Assembly (NCBI GenBank): GCA_002898375.1
Contig: BEIN01000004.1
Location: forward strand, 1-64,000
From: a bacterium HR37
GTDB lineage: Bacteria > Desulfobacterota_D > UBA1144 > Nemesobacterales > CSP1-2
Length of the DNA stretch: 64,000 bases
Direction of reading: 5' to 3'
The notes beneath the pieces are model-generated. The model was not told the origin of the DNA and made no database searches. It saw only the letters and a list, made by a program, of their open reading frames with translations. The first letter of the stretch is position 1. Every line of letters starts with the position of its first letter. Positions 53,950-60,402 of the stretch are shown piece by piece. Made by a program: the position numbers and the translations under genes.

Positions 53950-54933
53950 TTACAGATACTTGCTTTGTTGCAAACATCTTTTTTTTAGGGAGAGAAAAAA
54001 AAATCTATTTTCCCCTCTACCTCTTACAATCACATGTATGTTATAAACTACAGCCATAAGGGATACAATTTTCTTCTTGTTCTTCCACTTCCTCTCCCTT
54101 ATACTATCCCCAAACTTCCTTTTTATAACTGAAATCACTGTCTCACATATCCATCTCTTTCCATAAATACCACTCCATCTGGAAATCATATAAACCATAT
54201 ATGCTAAGATTCTATCTAGACTCCTTATACTCCCACCCCTTCTTATAGGTGGGATGACCCTTATAGGGAACCCAAGCCTAAAATTCCCCTTTCCATCAAA
54301 CCCCCTGTCCATAACTTCTATTAAAGCCATCAGAGATGATTCCTTCTCTAACTTAGCCAAACCCCCTGCATCCCCACTTGGCCCTCTTCCAACAACCTCA
54401 GATACTAAAACCTGTGTCCTTGTATCCAATAAATACCAAACCTTTATCCACCTCTTCCTCCTCTTCCCACTCCTTAGGGCATAATAAAATCCTGCTACAT
54501 CCTCCTTAAACCCAGTTGAATCACAAGCAAATACCAATGCTAAGCTACCCCCAGGAATAACTATCTCCAAAACCTTCCCAAAAAGCCTCTTTATCTCTTT
54601 ACCACTTACCCTACTTAATGCCCTACAAAACGTTGAATAATTTGGAACCCACCTTAAACCCAATACCCTCCTTGTATCACTTGAGGATAATAAAAACTCC
54701 TCTAAATCCCTATAAGACATATTCCTTATGTATATCTTTAAAAGTACACATGAAATTAACTGAGGAAGACTATATATATGTGGACTCTTCTTATGTGAAT
54801 ACATTGCAAGTGATTGTCTTGCTACAAAATACGCCATCCTTAAAAACCTCTTGTATCTACCTTCCTTTTTATTCCTTTTCATATTAAAACTACTACTAAA
54901 TCTCTTTTGCCTCCTTAGGGTATACTCAATCAT
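53950..54933 (-). CDS. IS5-like DDE transposase
   Basis: The product has 327 residues. The DDE triad is Asp in FACDSTGF, Asp in EVMDRGFDGKG and Glu in the R-x3-E-x6-K motif RWICETVISVIKRK, typical of the IS4/IS5 superfamily. The middle carries NYSTFCRALSRV. The N-terminus is basic. The frame appears intact, so the copy may be active. Its stop codon lies about eight bases outside the terminal repeat, in flanking DNA. The mRNA start lies in the loop of a hairpin (54909-54957). Confidence 0.9.
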   Translation of the reverse strand: MIEYTLRRQKRFSSSFNMKRNKKEGRYKRFLRMAYFVARQSLAMYSHKKSPHIYSLPQLISCVLLKIYIRNMSYRDLEEFLLSSSDTRRVLGLRWVPNYSTFCRALSRVSGKEIKRLFGKVLEIVIPGGSLALVFACDSTGFKEDVAGFYYALRSGKRRKRWIKVWYLLDTRTQVLVSEVVGRGPSGDAGGLAKLEKESSLMALIEVMDRGFDGKGNFRLGFPIRVIPPIRRGGSIRSLDRILAYMVYMISRWSGIYGKRWICETVISVIKRKFGDSIRERKWKNKKKIVSLMAVVYNIHVIVRGRGENRFFFLSLKKRCLQQSKYL

Positions 54934-54997
54934 ATCTAATTTATACCTTAAGGAGGCTTCTTATCTATATCTTTTCTATATCTTTGCAACAGAGCAA
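53960..54997 (-). mobile_element. Insertion sequence, IS5-like, about 1.04 kb
   Basis: The ends are imperfect inverted repeats: TTGCTTTGTTGCAAA at 53960-53974 and TTGCTCTGTTGCAAA read from 54997 leftwards (14 of 15 identical). One transposase gene fills the element. I could not identify a target-site duplication. A decayed copy of the right end occurs at 58321-58447. Confidence 0.8.
54909..54957 (-). promoter_or_regulatory. Hairpin around the transposase start codon
   Basis: GCCTCCTTAAGGTATA (54957-54942) pairs with TATACCCTAAGGAGGC (54924-54909), 15 of 16 positions, and the ATG at 54933 lies in the 17-base loop. The 5' arm contains CCTCC, an anti-Shine-Dalgarno. Such structures limit transposase translation from read-through mRNA in other ISs. 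Confidence 0.5.
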
Positions 54998-55257
54998 TTA
55001 CCAAGTGGTATAGTTATAAGGCTACAGAACTGATAAAAACTTATACTCATGTTAGCACAAAGGATCTTTAGAGCGATAAAAAGCTTCTCCAATGATCTCT
55101 TAACAGTAAGTAAAATATGATTAAAAACCAATGGTTGACCGGAGGATATATATGGGAACAATCGCATATCTTTCGTATTTTGTAGCATATCCGGGCTACT
55201 CGGATATGAACAATTTAGATGAAATTTAAACCAGTAATTGGTAAACAGGAGGCAATT

Positions 55258-57879
55258 ATGGGGTTAGATAATTACTTTCAGTCCAAAAAATGGAGCATTG
55301 TAGATGTTTTAACAATGCCGTCACGCAAAGCTGAATACTATGGATATGCTGATATTGGTCTTTCAAACCAATCTAGAAAGTATATAAAAGATTCCTTACC
55401 AAAGGGAATTTACCACCACCAGAAAGAAGCTATTAAAGATTTTCTTGCTAAGAAAAATATTTGTTTGACTACAGGAACAGCTTCAGGTAAAAGCTTAGTT
55501 TTTTATGTAGCAGCAATAGAACAGTTTGTAAGACATCCAGATTCTAAAATTATTGCTATTTATCCTCTAAAAGCACTGGGTAGAGAACAAGAAGAACGTT
55601 GGATTGAATCACTACGAAATGCAGATCTTAGTGTCAAGGTAGGGAGAATAGATGGACAGATTCCAGTGCATGCACGACTTGGAATATTAAAAAATAGCCA
55701 AGTACTGATACTAACCCCTGATATTATTCATTCTTGGTTTATGTATAATATAAGTAACAAGGCGGTAATAAACTTTCTTGCTAAGCTTTCCCTAATAGTC
55801 GTTGACGAAGTTCATAATTATACAGGTGTATTTGGAAGTAACTCTGGTTTTCTCTTTAGAAGAATGCAGCACATAATGAACTTGCTTGGTTCTTCTCCTC
55901 AATATATTGCTGCTTCAGCTACTATTTCTGAACCAGAGTTACATTTAAAAAAATTGTTAGGAGTAGAATTTAAGATAATTGGTTCAGACTTAGATACTTC
56001 TCCTAGGCAAGAGGTTACAATTGAACTTGTTGAACCTCCAAGCATAAAAGATTTATTAACTACTTTATCGGAATTTATGGAGTTTATTGCTAGGAATACA
56101 GATTATAAGTTTATAACTTTTGTAGATAGCAGGAAACAAACCGAATATATTACCTCGATCATCTCTCGTTCTCAAATAAGAGAGGATGATGAAATGTCTT
56201 TAGATTACGACCACTTGCAAAAGCTCAATGTTCTACCATATCGAGCCGGATACGAAGAGGAAGACAGAAATGTAATTCAAGAAAGACTTAGTAAGGGGAA
56301 ACTAAATGGAGTTGTAAGTACAAGTGCTCTTGAACTTGGAATTGACATTCCATTTTTGGATCTAGGTATTTTAGTAGGAGTTCCAAATTCTGCTACAAGT
56401 TTTTATCAACGAATTGGACGTATCGGACGACGTTCTAAGGGAAAAGTTATAGTGATCAATACAGGTGATATTTATAGTGAAAGCATTTTTAGAAATCCAA
56501 AACAATTATTAAATATGCCTTTGTCAGAGGGAGCGTTATACTTGGAGAATCCACGTATTCAATATATTCATGCACTGTGTTTAGCAAGACATGGAGGAGA
56601 ACATGATCAAGTGTGCTCTATCCTTAATATAGAGGAATCAACATCAGATTTCAAAAGCTCTATTAGCTGGCCGGAAGGCTTCTTAGAACTTTGCAAGTCT
56701 GAGCGTATCGGTGTGATTCCTCCTGAGCTCCAAAATATAAAAGCACAAGCAGGTGATGATCCGAATCATACATATCCACTAAGGGATGTAGATATACAGT
56801 TTCGAGTTAAACACAAAAAGGGGCCTATAGAAGAATCTCTTGGTTCATTATCATATGGTCAATTAATGCGCGAGGCATATCCTGGAGCTGTATATTATTA
56901 TACTACAAAACCGTATAGGGTGTATCGTGTTAAAGTTTATTCGAAGCTTATTGAGGTAAGGACTGAAAAGAGATATACTACAAAACCGTTGATGTTACCT
57001 ACTTTGGTATTTCCTAACTTTACTTCAGGAAATGTGTATTTGGCTCGAAAATATGGTGATCTAATTGCTGTGGAATGTAACTTGCAAATAAGAGAAATTA
57101 TTGTTGGATTTAAAGAACGGCGTGGACCTAACGAGTTTACAGTTAATTATCCTCTTGATCCTTCATTAAATTTGTACTTTGACCAATCCCGATTTACGCG
57201 AAATTATTTTACTACAGGAGTAGTTTTTACCCATCCAATTTTTAATCAACCTAAGATCCGATGCGACATCATTGCTAATCTTTTATTCGAGGCTTTTTTG
57301 ATGGTTATTCCATTTGAAAGACGGGATATTTATTTCGCTAATGATAAACATAGAGTAAAAAGTGGATCAATCAACGAAGGGGATAAATTTGTTTGTATAT
57401 ATGATCAAACTTATGGAAGTTTGAGATTGTCAAGTCGTATTTTAGAGGAATATATCTTGAAACAGGTTGTGGAAAAAACAGTTGAATTAGCTCAACATGA
57501 TGAGAGTCTAGATATAGATCACGAAACAATAAAAGCATTAGAGGAGATATTAGCTTCCTTATCTAAAGTACCCATTGAAATTTCTTTTGACTCGGAGAAG
57601 GAGCTCCCATCTGAAACTAATCGCTTCGTGAGAGTAATAATGCCTGGTTCGAAGGGCCTGAATGTTAAAGAGAATAATGAAGAATTTTTTGTTGAGGGTG
57701 TATTTTTCAGTCCTTATTTTAACGGATTGGCCTATAGAGGTAAACATTTATCTCAACAGGGACCAAAATACAAAAGCGTAACGATCTCAATTGCTGTTGA
57801 TTCATTAAAAGAAATACCTGGTGAAAGTAAGTTTGGTTTGTATGACCTTGAAACGGGAGAGTTAAAAGAACTCGAGTAA
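55258..57879 (+). CDS. YprA/MrfA-like superfamily 2 helicase
   Basis: The product has 873 residues from the ATG at 55258, five bases after AGGAGG; an in-frame ATG at 55219 is unsupported. Helicase motifs: Walker A LTTGTASGKSLVFY, Ia YPLKALGREQ, Walker B VVDEVHNYTG (DEVH), III SATI, V STSALELGIDI and VI QRIGRIGRRSKG. The C-terminal third (NLLFEAFLMVIPFERRDIYF, FVCIYDQTYGSLRL) resembles DUF1998 but lacks its usual Cys cluster. MrfA unwinds DNA in crosslink repair, and related helicases occur in defence systems such as DISARM. It is markedly AT-rich with codons unlike the core genes, so horizontally gained. Confidence 0.82.
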   Translation: MGLDNYFQSKKWSIVDVLTMPSRKAEYYGYADIGLSNQSRKYIKDSLPKGIYHHQKEAIKDFLAKKNICLTTGTASGKSLVFYVAAIEQFVRHPDSKIIAIYPLKALGREQEERWIESLRNADLSVKVGRIDGQIPVHARLGILKNSQVLILTPDIIHSWFMYNISNKAVINFLAKLSLIVVDEVHNYTGVFGSNSGFLFRRMQHIMNLLGSSPQYIAASATISEPELHLKKLLGVEFKIIGSDLDTSPRQEVTIELVEPPSIKDLLTTLSEFMEFIARNTDYKFITFVDSRKQTEYITSIISRSQIREDDEMSLDYDHLQKLNVLPYRAGYEEEDRNVIQERLSKGKLNGVVSTSALELGIDIPFLDLGILVGVPNSATSFYQRIGRIGRRSKGKVIVINTGDIYSESIFRNPKQLLNMPLSEGALYLENPRIQYIHALCLARHGGEHDQVCSILNIEESTSDFKSSISWPEGFLELCKSERIGVIPPELQNIKAQAGDDPNHTYPLRDVDIQFRVKHKKGPIEESLGSLSYGQLMREAYPGAVYYYTTKPYRVYRVKVYSKLIEVRTEKRYTTKPLMLPTLVFPNFTSGNVYLARKYGDLIAVECNLQIREIIVGFKERRGPNEFTVNYPLDPSLNLYFDQSRFTRNYFTTGVVFTHPIFNQPKIRCDIIANLLFEAFLMVIPFERRDIYFANDKHRVKSGSINEGDKFVCIYDQTYGSLRLSSRILEEYILKQVVEKTVELAQHDESLDIDHETIKALEEILASLSKVPIEISFDSEKELPSETNRFVRVIMPGSKGLNVKENNEEFFVEGVFFSPYFNGLAYRGKHLSQQGPKYKSVTISIAVDSLKEIPGESKFGLYDLETGELKELE

Positions 57880-58320: not shown

Positions 58321-58447
58321 TCTTCCCTTTTATTCCGTTTAAGATTACAATTATTCCTAAATCTGTTTTGCCTCCTTAAGTAATACTTAAATATACCCAA
58401 TTTATACCTTAAGGAGGTTTTTTATCCCTATCTTTGTAACAGAGCAA
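58321..58447 (-). mobile_element. Decayed right end of a second IS5-like element
   Basis: These 127 bases align along their length with the right end of the intact IS (54870-54997): shared blocks include TTTTGCCTCCTTA, AATTTATACCTTAAGGAGG, ATCTTTG.AACAGAGCAA. It includes the start of the transposase gene and the hairpin arms CCTCCTTAAG / CTTAAGGAGG, but not the remainder. It interrupts the restriction-domain fragment and ends 47 bases before the next gene. Confidence 0.8.
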
Positions 58448-58493
58448 CCTAATGTTATAATTGCTTCTAAGTCTCTTTTTTGGAGGCAGTGGT

Positions 58494-59474
58494 ATGGGGA
58501 AGTTAACTGTAAATTTTAAAAGAGTTCGAAGTTACTTTCGTGATAAGCTAGATTGGGCTTGGCAGTCTGACAACGTAGTTGAGCTTGACCGGATCTGGAA
58601 CAGATTAAGAGATCGGCTTACAACAACAAAGGCTCAGGGAAAAGACATAGTTAGTGTTGTTCTTGCATTTCTTCAGGAGCCAGATTTGCTAAGATGGACT
58701 AAAAGTTTAACAGAGGGTGCAACAACTGTTTATGATAAGGCAATGGATGCATTTATAAGAGAGGGCATTGGTGGACAAGAACATCGTTTATTTGATGGTG
58801 GTCATACTATTAGTGGTTCTTGGGAGGCAGTAAGAGAAGCTCTTCCAGGTGATACCAGATTTGAGGAGATTACAGGTTGGGTTGAGGCTTACTTTAAGGA
58901 TCTGACAACCCCTAGGGGAATGCCATTTGTAACAATTGATAAGGCAGACTTTGACAATTGGGTTGAAACGATAGCTGAAAATATTCCAGGTATTGACAGA
59001 AGATACCTATACGATTTACTGACCTTTGATGCTATGGAAATCTTTGTTGCTGGTCTTAGTGTTGTAGGCGTTTTCTTTGCCTTTAGCAAAGAGGACAAAG
59101 AGAATGTAGCTAGGATACTTGGGTCAATGGGTATATCTTCCATAATAGCAGCTAATCCGATTTTGGGTATTACAACAATTGCGTTAACAGCTTACTCGTA
59201 CTGGAAGCATGGACCAATTGATACTGCGTCTGCTGTTAAGGGTGGTGGGCTTACAGCTATTTCGGCGTTTTTGTTTTGGATTATGTCGTTGCCAATACTT
59301 GTTGAGCTAGTTATAGTTGTTACCTTGACCGTACTATTCAGAAAACAGGTACTTGACAACAGGGAATTTGCAAGCTGGTTAAAACAAAAGGTGCAGGACT
59401 CTTTAGTTGGACCGAAAGAGCTTATTAATCTCGACAGACTTGAAAATTTAGTCTCGGTATTGGGTACCCGCTAA
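58494..59474 (+). CDS. Unrecognised island membrane protein with HRLFDGGHT motif
   Basis: The product has 326 residues from the ATG at 58494, seven bases after GGAGG. About the first 190 residues are soluble and charged with a striking block QEHRLFDGGHTISGSWEAV near residue 103-121 and KDLTTPRGMPFVTIDK. From about 195 there are three or four hydrophobic segments (FVAGLSVVGVFFAF, SSIIAANPILGITTIALTAY, GGLTAISAFLFWIMSLPILV, LVIVVTLTVLF), then an amphipathic C-terminal tail. No family or enzyme motif is certain. I have an impression of related hypothetical proteins in accessory regions, but cannot name them. A 55-codon acidic ORF follows 96 bases later. Confidence 0.75.
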   Translation: MGKLTVNFKRVRSYFRDKLDWAWQSDNVVELDRIWNRLRDRLTTTKAQGKDIVSVVLAFLQEPDLLRWTKSLTEGATTVYDKAMDAFIREGIGGQEHRLFDGGHTISGSWEAVREALPGDTRFEEITGWVEAYFKDLTTPRGMPFVTIDKADFDNWVETIAENIPGIDRRYLYDLLTFDAMEIFVAGLSVVGVFFAFSKEDKENVARILGSMGISSIIAANPILGITTIALTAYSYWKHGPIDTASAVKGGGLTAISAFLFWIMSLPILVELVIVVTLTVLFRKQVLDNREFASWLKQKVQDSLVGPKELINLDRLENLVSVLGTR

Positions 59475-59570
59475 TATAAAGCTTTAATCTAGGCTATAAT
59501 GAAGTCACAAGTTGAATATCCCAGGGAAAAGCAATTGCGAAAAAAGTAATCTAAAGCGAGAATAAAAGAG

Positions 59571-59738
59571 ATGAAAAAATCTTTTAAATGGCCTATTTCA
59601 AAACTGGTTGAGGATCTTTTAGGAAATATCCCGGATAAATCTGTAGAAACACTGCTTGAGGAGCTAGAGAAAGTATTGCCAGAAAACGAAGAAGCAGATG
59701 ATAAGGATAAAGCAAATAAACAGGATGTAGAAAAATAA
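59571..59738 (+). CDS. Tiny acidic ORF downstream of the island membrane protein
   Basis: A 55-codon frame, ATG 59571 to TAA 59738, below the usual ORF cut-off. The product starts basic and aromatic (MKKSFKWPISKLVEDLLG), then a helix (TLLEELEKVL) and a very acidic/lysine tail (PENEEADDKDKANKQDVEK). AAAGAG precedes the ATG weakly. Size and place suggest a partner, for example an immunity or regulatory peptide, but no homology is known to me. Confidence 0.5.
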   Translation: MKKSFKWPISKLVEDLLGNIPDKSVETLLEELEKVLPENEEADDKDKANKQDVEK

Positions 59739-59879
59739 ATGTTTTTAGAAGCTCCTAGCTAGAACCTGCTTTTTTGAAGTAAATCAGCTTGTAAAAATTA
59801 TGTAACCTTCGTGCAACCTTTCCAGCTTTTATAAGAAAAAAGTTGCCTAATACCAGCAGTAGCACTAAACAAAAGAAAT
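59739..59879. other. Intergenic DNA, no recognised gene
   Basis: AT-rich DNA between the tiny ORF and the inverted repeat. A frame opens at 59843 and runs into the recombinase fragment, but its first 50 codons are low-complexity Ser/Lys/Gln and look non-coding. Confidence 0.4.
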
Positions 59880-59955
59880 GCCAACAGGCTCTGATCTCTT
59901 CGTCCTCCTATAAGAAATCTATAGCTATCTCCTCCTCTCAACAGAACCTGTTGGC
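59880..59955. repeat. Inverted repeat upstream of the recombinase fragment
   Basis: GCCAACAGG (59880-59888) and CCTGTTGGC (59947-59955) are perfect complements; an extra CTG/CAG pair after a 2-base mismatch extends the stem. The right arm also forms a small hairpin CAACAG-AAC-CTGTTG. It may be a recombinase-binding site or the relic of an element end. Confidence 0.45.
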
Positions 59956-59963
59956 TAGATCAA

Positions 59964-59999
59964 GTTTTAATTCCCTACGGGAATTAGAGGTATTTCTAC
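59964..59999 (+). repeat. Solitary CRISPR-repeat-like 36-mer
   Basis: This 36-base segment begins GTTTTAATTCCC and ends GGTATTTCTAC, with a perfect 7-bp hairpin (AATTCCC-TAC-GGGAATT) inside. Length, GTTT start, internal palindrome and AC end are those of many CRISPR repeats. No second copy lies at spacer distance either side and no cas gene is in the window, so it is at most a relic. The recombinase fragment starts directly after it. Confidence 0.35.
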
Positions 60000-60004
60000 T
60001 TTAT

Positions 60005-60319
60005 TCTGATGCATGGAAGAGAGCTTGGAAGACAGCTCTTAAGAAATCAGGAATAGCATATTGCAGGTTTCATGATCTTAGACATACCTTTGTATCAAAT
60101 CTTGTTGTGGGGGAGAAAGAAGATTTAACAACTGTTATGGAGCTTAGTGGACACAAGGATATCCGGATGCTTAAGCGTTACAGCCACACAGGAGAAGAGG
60201 CAAAGAGAACAGCTATAGGAAAGCTTGAAGAACGCTTAAACAGAGCGGTTATAGACACCTCTTTGGACACCTCTAGCAGTATATATGAATATGAAGAAGA
60301 ATTAAATGTAAGTCCTTGA
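60005..60319 (+). pseudogene. C-terminal fragment of a tyrosine recombinase (integrase)
   Basis: About 104 residues of the phage-integrase catalytic domain remain: AWKRAWKTALKKSGIAYCRF, box II HDLRHTFVSNL (His and Arg), LSGHKDIRMLKRYSH with the second His and the nucleophile Tyr, then an acidic tail. The N-terminal SAM-like domain and the first catalytic Arg/Lys part are missing; the in-frame sequence upstream (from 59843) is not recombinase-like. It ends seven bases before the 3' end of tRNA-Gly, the normal position for an integrase that targets the tRNA. It is the truncated driver of the island. Confidence 0.85.
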
Positions 60320-60325
60320 AATCAT

Positions 60326-60402
60326 TGGAGCGGGAAACGGGATTCGAACCCGCGACCTTCTCCTTGGCAAGGAGACGCTCTAACCAACTGAGCTATTCCC
60401 GC
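60326..60402 (-). tRNA. tRNA-Gly(GCC), right boundary of the island
   Basis: A 77-nt cloverleaf with acceptor GCGGGAA/TTCCCGC, D arm TAGCTCAGTTGGTTAGAGC, anticodon arm TCTCC-TTGCCAA-GGAGA (anticodon GCC), T arm GGTTCGAATCC, discriminator T and encoded CCA. The 3' end faces the island and the recombinase fragment. It is intact and presumably functional; its 3' end is repeated in diverged form at 49795-49822. Confidence 0.96.

Follow-up and report, generated by a model that had tools for sequence, protein, structure and literature searches.

Superinfection-exclusion morons such as SieA of phage P22 (PMC10883804) are single membrane proteins carried as cargo. In this they resemble P0001, the 326-residue protein described here, one phage-borne relative of which (L066) lies on the other strand from the tail genes around it. 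They differ in that no sequence relation was found (no PHROG match) and in that most members of the P0001 family are chromosomal, outside phages. Membrane-anchored abortive-infection effectors of the PADLOC type likewise combine a conserved domain with membrane helices on a mobile island, but the P0001 family has no PADLOC match and no conserved partner, and lies mostly outside defence contexts. An LDGGH motif is typical of RseP-like enzymes, and site-2 proteases (RseP, Peptidase_M50) share with P0001 a DGGH tetrapeptide and membrane helices. The P0001 family differs from these in lacking HExxH, in carrying its motif outside a membrane helix and in giving no profile or fold match. Finally, the alanine-rich amphipathic N-terminal repeats seen in many relatives from sponge symbionts recall LEA/phasin/perilipin-like proteins, whereas the family as a whole has a conserved His/Asp core and a hydrophobic helical bundle, and its compact members, the phage copies among them, are without repeats. 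P0001 is of a known kind as a mobile stand-alone membrane cargo protein; at the level of family or fold nothing known was found.

The window, the whole 64,000-nucleotide stretch that was analyzed, contains P0001 as an ATG open reading frame at 58494-59474 (+). A ribosome-binding site, GGAGG, was read directly from the sequence at 58482-58486 (+), 7 nt before the ATG. Read from an in-frame TTG at 58461, the protein would have 337 residues; the ATG at 58494, which has the ribosome site, is preferred as the start. Promoter- and terminator-like sites around the gene were found at no more than chance level. The HRLFDGGHT block occupies residues 97-105 (58782-58808, +). Hydropathy places four hydrophobic segments (residues 180-198, 208-226, 248-266 and 263-281) within residues 180-281 (59031-59336, +), and these are helices in the structure models of P0001 and of a compact relative, L047. 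The initial annotation had described a 326-residue protein with a good ribosome site, this block in its N-terminal half and a membrane C-terminal half, and all of these features were recovered. Judged by sequence comparison, P0001 is a genuine gene rather than a chance reading frame, because relatives occur in four other genomes of its order, at 52 further loci and in three viral contigs.

Relatives were sought at several depths. A search of 100 related genomes gave matches in four more genomes of the order, at 31-35% identity; one of these copies (G038) carries an internal stop. A profile built from four sequences was then used to search genome contigs and viral contigs, and matched 52 loci in the former and three in the latter. 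A single-sequence pattern search of the genome contigs gave no match, where the alignment-based search gave the 52 loci. Identity to P0001 is mostly 29-46%, and further divergent members were found by whole-genome searches. The family is present in 5/44 genomes of the window's order (its own included), in 4/289 and 3/296 genomes of the classes to which the L049 and L024 genomes belong, and in 2/248 of the phylum of the L044 genome; incidence is about 1% in the larger groups sampled. There is usually one copy per genome and sometimes two. In an alignment of 40 members the residues D85, H97, R98, D101, H104, D136, T139, G142, P144, N221 and P222 (P0001 numbering) are invariant, and P0001 keeps 11 of 11; the HRLFDGGHT block thus contributes H97, R98, D101 and H104. 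When more divergent members are included (55 rows), D85, H97, H104, D136, P144 and P222 are still invariant. These six residues and a hydrophobic C-terminal half, the features that define the family, are all present in P0001.

That no known domain is visible in the protein, as initially remarked, agrees with the library searches. P0001 had no convincing match (curated cut-off or significant E-value) in Pfam, NCBIfam, PHROGs or PADLOC, no Pfam family matched more than two of 40 family members, and the best hit of the family profile among PDB sequences, at E 0.13, is not meaningful. Pfam matches to DUF6336 and gp37_trimer were rejected as weak and not shared, each being confined to one or two of the 40 members. 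Searches by tblastn of 50,697 phage records (queries P0001, L064, L066 and L049) and of 72,556 plasmid records (queries P0001, L066 and L109) gave no match, and no paper containing the family's motif strings was found in the literature searched. From the reading frame, its relatives and the two family alignments, P0001 is very probably a divergent member of a membrane protein family that is undescribed and patchy in its distribution.

The structure prediction initially proposed for the N-terminal half was performed for P0001 and L047. The P0001 model is fair (pLDDT 72; residues 31-250 mostly 73-95). L047, modelled from an alignment with 54 other members, gave a confident model (pLDDT 90.6, pTM 0.74) that is nearly all helical. 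With a threshold of E ≤0.001, neither model had a Foldseek match in the PDB better than E 0.5, and the P0001 model had no match to viral structures better than E 0.05; for the L047 model nothing in the PDB came below E 1. The family is notable in that it is absent from every curated library searched and in that its confident L047 model matches no solved fold.

P0001 lies in a stretch from 53.0 to 60.3 kb with a GC content of about 34-38%, compared with about 43% outside. The same stretch holds a HepT-like/nucleotidyltransferase (MntA) pair identified by profile match 5 kb upstream of P0001 (53125-53782, −), a DDE transposase (53950-54933, −) and an 886-residue DEAD-box helicase (55219-57879, +). 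The helicase matches TIGR03817 over the first half of that profile, well below the cut-off, while its C-terminal half is without assignment; it is possibly island cargo in its own right. Just upstream of P0001, a 114-nt repeat (58322-58435, +) shares 82% identity with 54861-54974, where the transposase gene starts, so that the two copies flank the helicase gene. Because the genome contains eight matches to this repeat, the query itself included, 58322-58435 is probably a leftover insertion-sequence end. Downstream, an integrase remnant (59843-60319, +) matches PF00589 (E 5e-12) over profile positions 107-168 of 172, the C-terminal part only, and abuts a tRNA-Gly(GCC) (60326-60402, −) that forms the island border. 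No further copy of the tRNA-Gly end that could be the far attachment site was found within the window. The island setting with a toxin-antitoxin pair claimed at the outset is thereby upheld. P0001 is mobile cargo, given the low-GC tRNA-Gly island, the integrase remnant, its occurrence in 5/44 genomes of the order and its phage-borne relatives.

The initial annotation had also joined P0001 to the reading frame behind it in a two-gene unit. This 55-residue acidic frame, P0002 (59571-59738, +), taken from the list of open reading frames as a candidate gene only, does exist; it has 15 acidic and 10 basic residues and starts 96 nt after the P0001 stop. Neither the surroundings of the P0001 homologues nor 100 other genomes gave a credible match to it (best E 0.04 in the latter). 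In shuffled sequence, a frame of at least 55 codons was obtained in 3.7% (ATG only) or 6.7% (any start) of cases on one strand, and in 21% on both strands. P0002 may be a gene, but by these comparisons it forms no conserved unit with P0001, and the two-gene proposal was abandoned.

Several relatives are found on mobile DNA. In the phage fragment L066, a tape measure gene lies two genes from the homologue in one direction, and in the other direction there is a minor-tail gene. Note that the arrangement of an accessory gene in its own orientation among structural genes holds for L066, whereas P0001 itself is on an island with an integrase remnant only. The L064 homologue is in a 203-kb viral contig and adjoins an exonuclease V/RecD-like helicase. 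In G380 an integrase gene lies upstream at a contig end, three genes away from the homologue, together with a NERD/UvrD helicase. In the tree, P0001 falls in a set of five rows with proteins of the 203-kb phage and two proteins of its order (support 98/99), although several long branches meet there. Elsewhere in the tree, the Gemmatimonadota member L032 nests inside Gammaproteobacteria with L025 and L028 (support 100/97), which fits transfer between phyla; one common N-terminal domain is fused to the family core in all three.

To survey neighbors, all reading frames around the homologues were clustered; they had been called by a simple greedy method, which in GC-rich genomes may choose antisense frames. 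No conserved neighbor was found; the only recurring families were small ones from synteny of related genomes or common metabolic genes. Most homologues stand alone amid genes of metabolism, and their hosts are mainly sponge symbionts from several phyla; the surroundings include trpB/trpA-like genes (L027), dTDP-sugar genes (L035, L047) and an HpcH/HpaI aldolase (several Acidimicrobiia). PADLOC matches among 115 neighbors were scattered and nearly all in single neighbors, the clearest being AbiEi and AbiEii. A defence-island layout was therefore not seen as a general property of the family. HEPN/nucleotidyltransferase or AbiE-like pairs do occur near three members of the window's order: besides the pair in the window, G042 has a nucleotidyltransferase and a substrate-binding (HEPN) partner 2.7-3.5 kb from the homologue, and an AbiE-like pair, assigned from sequence and position, adjoins the broken G038 copy (L010). 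HepT-like genes are uncommon in these genomes (0-4 each), and the association, counted without a matched control, should be considered suggestive. Homologues scattered with no link to mobile DNA, the finding that the initial annotation regarded as contrary to its proposal, are the rule in the sponge group; in the window's own clade, by contrast, several members are on mobile DNA. In one genome, from the phylum of the L044 genome, a protein with an N-terminal hydrophobic segment (L113:2735-3469) is encoded directly upstream of the homologue on the same strand; it has a weak PADLOC match to LeoBC (E 3e-6) and is possibly a local partner.

In an uncontrolled count by isolate-name prefix, about 43 of the 52 loci come from MAGs of sponges, with p16x, SB06xx, bin34 and bin16 assigned on name alone. 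A paper on MAGs from Ircinia sponges (PMC9531527) contains the prefix jk18x, and the prefixes CAR, RHO, IRC and APA agree, by inference, with the host species of PMC8163846. These members belong to Actinomycetota, Chloroflexota, Gemmatimonadota, Pseudomonadota and others, and no phage link was seen for this majority. An incidence of about 1%, the presence in a large phage contig and the occurrence mainly in sponge symbionts suggest an accessory rather than a housekeeping function, one of ecological interest. Long N-terminal extensions rich in alanine are common among the sponge members. Of 42 members tested, 24 have a significantly amphipathic extension, whose helical hydrophobic moment exceeds that of shuffles by more than 2 SD; the best period is often 7, 11, 18, 22 or 33. 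Such extensions fit membrane-surface binding. Compact members with no extension also exist, both phage forms included.

We consider the best explanation, with a probability of roughly 35%, to be that P0001 is an enzyme-like protein, probably dependent on a metal, that acts by itself at the envelope while anchored in the membrane, and that phages and islands have spread it. The first half of the protein is a conserved helical domain with the invariant residues D85, H97, R98, D101, H104 and D136, and the second half consists of hydrophobic helices. The invariant His/Asp set would form a putative metal-binding or active site next to the membrane, and the protein would act alone on a lipid, a lipid-linked or a membrane-protein substrate of the cell envelope. 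For the mobile clade, this activity may benefit the carrier at the level of the envelope, most likely in the form of superinfection exclusion; in sponge symbionts the same activity may be kept as an ordinary cellular function. Against this reading, the sponge-symbiont majority shows no phage link, the phage and plasmid records gave no match, and the invariant residues could be structural rather than catalytic. The His/Asp set makes function directly testable with a handful of point mutants. A more far-reaching version is doubtful: that the family represents a fold not seen before, an enzyme embedded in the membrane and probably dependent on a metal, which phages and islands carry and which bacteria of unrelated phyla living in marine sponges have kept or exchanged as a common accessory function.

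The other readings were weighed on the same evidence. Somewhat less probable than an envelope enzyme, though still a tenable minority view, is a structural protein of the membrane surface, in which the core and its amphipathic repeat extensions coat or stabilize membranes, much as LEA, phasin or perilipin proteins do, are favored in sponge symbionts, and reached the window as a transferred offshoot that lacks the repeats. The raised helical moment and periodicity of the alanine-rich extensions and the predominance of sponge MAGs favor it; against it, the invariant His, Asp and Arg residues have the look of a site for reaction or binding more than of a coat, and there are compact members without the extension, both phage forms among them. 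That P0001 is neutral or decaying cargo, persisting by hitchhiking and doing nothing for its host, is unlikely. The neighboring integrase is a remnant, the homologues in G038 and L059 are both broken, and the family is rare in all groups sampled, but P0001 is full-length, with its ribosome site and all invariant residues intact.

A little more improbable still is that P0001 serves an abortive-infection system as its membrane effector and has the 55-residue frame or another neighbor as partner. This would draw on the HEPN/nucleotidyltransferase pairs that the window and G042 have close to the gene, on the AbiE-like pair beside the broken G038 copy and on the phage-borne relatives; it conflicts with a small frame that is not conserved, with the lack of any conserved partner gene, with the lack of a PADLOC match for P0001 and with the scatter of defence matches among the 115 neighbors. 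Of the effector-like layout claimed initially, the non-membrane domain joined to a membrane half and the mobile DNA stand, and the partner does not; a part in conflict with phages is weakly suggested, and an abortive-infection role in particular is a minor possibility that is not favored here. A site-2-type intramembrane protease, suggested by FDGGH within HRLFDGGHT, has next to no likelihood. The short motif is the whole of the resemblance: it is in the non-membrane half, no Peptidase_M50 profile match was obtained for 40 members against Pfam, no fold match was found, and HExxH is absent from 55 of 55 members, by which this identity was ruled out.

Compared with this stand-alone form of the putative envelope enzyme, some members are joined to other domains. 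By Pfam, the core continues in frame from a luciferase-like monooxygenase domain at L046:13345-15831 and stands in frame behind a PIN domain at L055:7371-9086 and behind a helix-turn-helix domain at L060:505-2070. Homologues at L013:998-2857, L014:4746-6614 and L016:6948-8837 are joined to a conserved N-terminal domain (VIAIDPAPGK..., VEIHPG...) that has no Pfam match and resembles DUF429 by eye only. The homologues L060:505-2070 and L061:3291-4889 are very similar and have the same N-terminal domain, yet come from bins labelled Acidobacteriota and Binatota, respectively; this likeness reflects either recent transfer or mis-binning.
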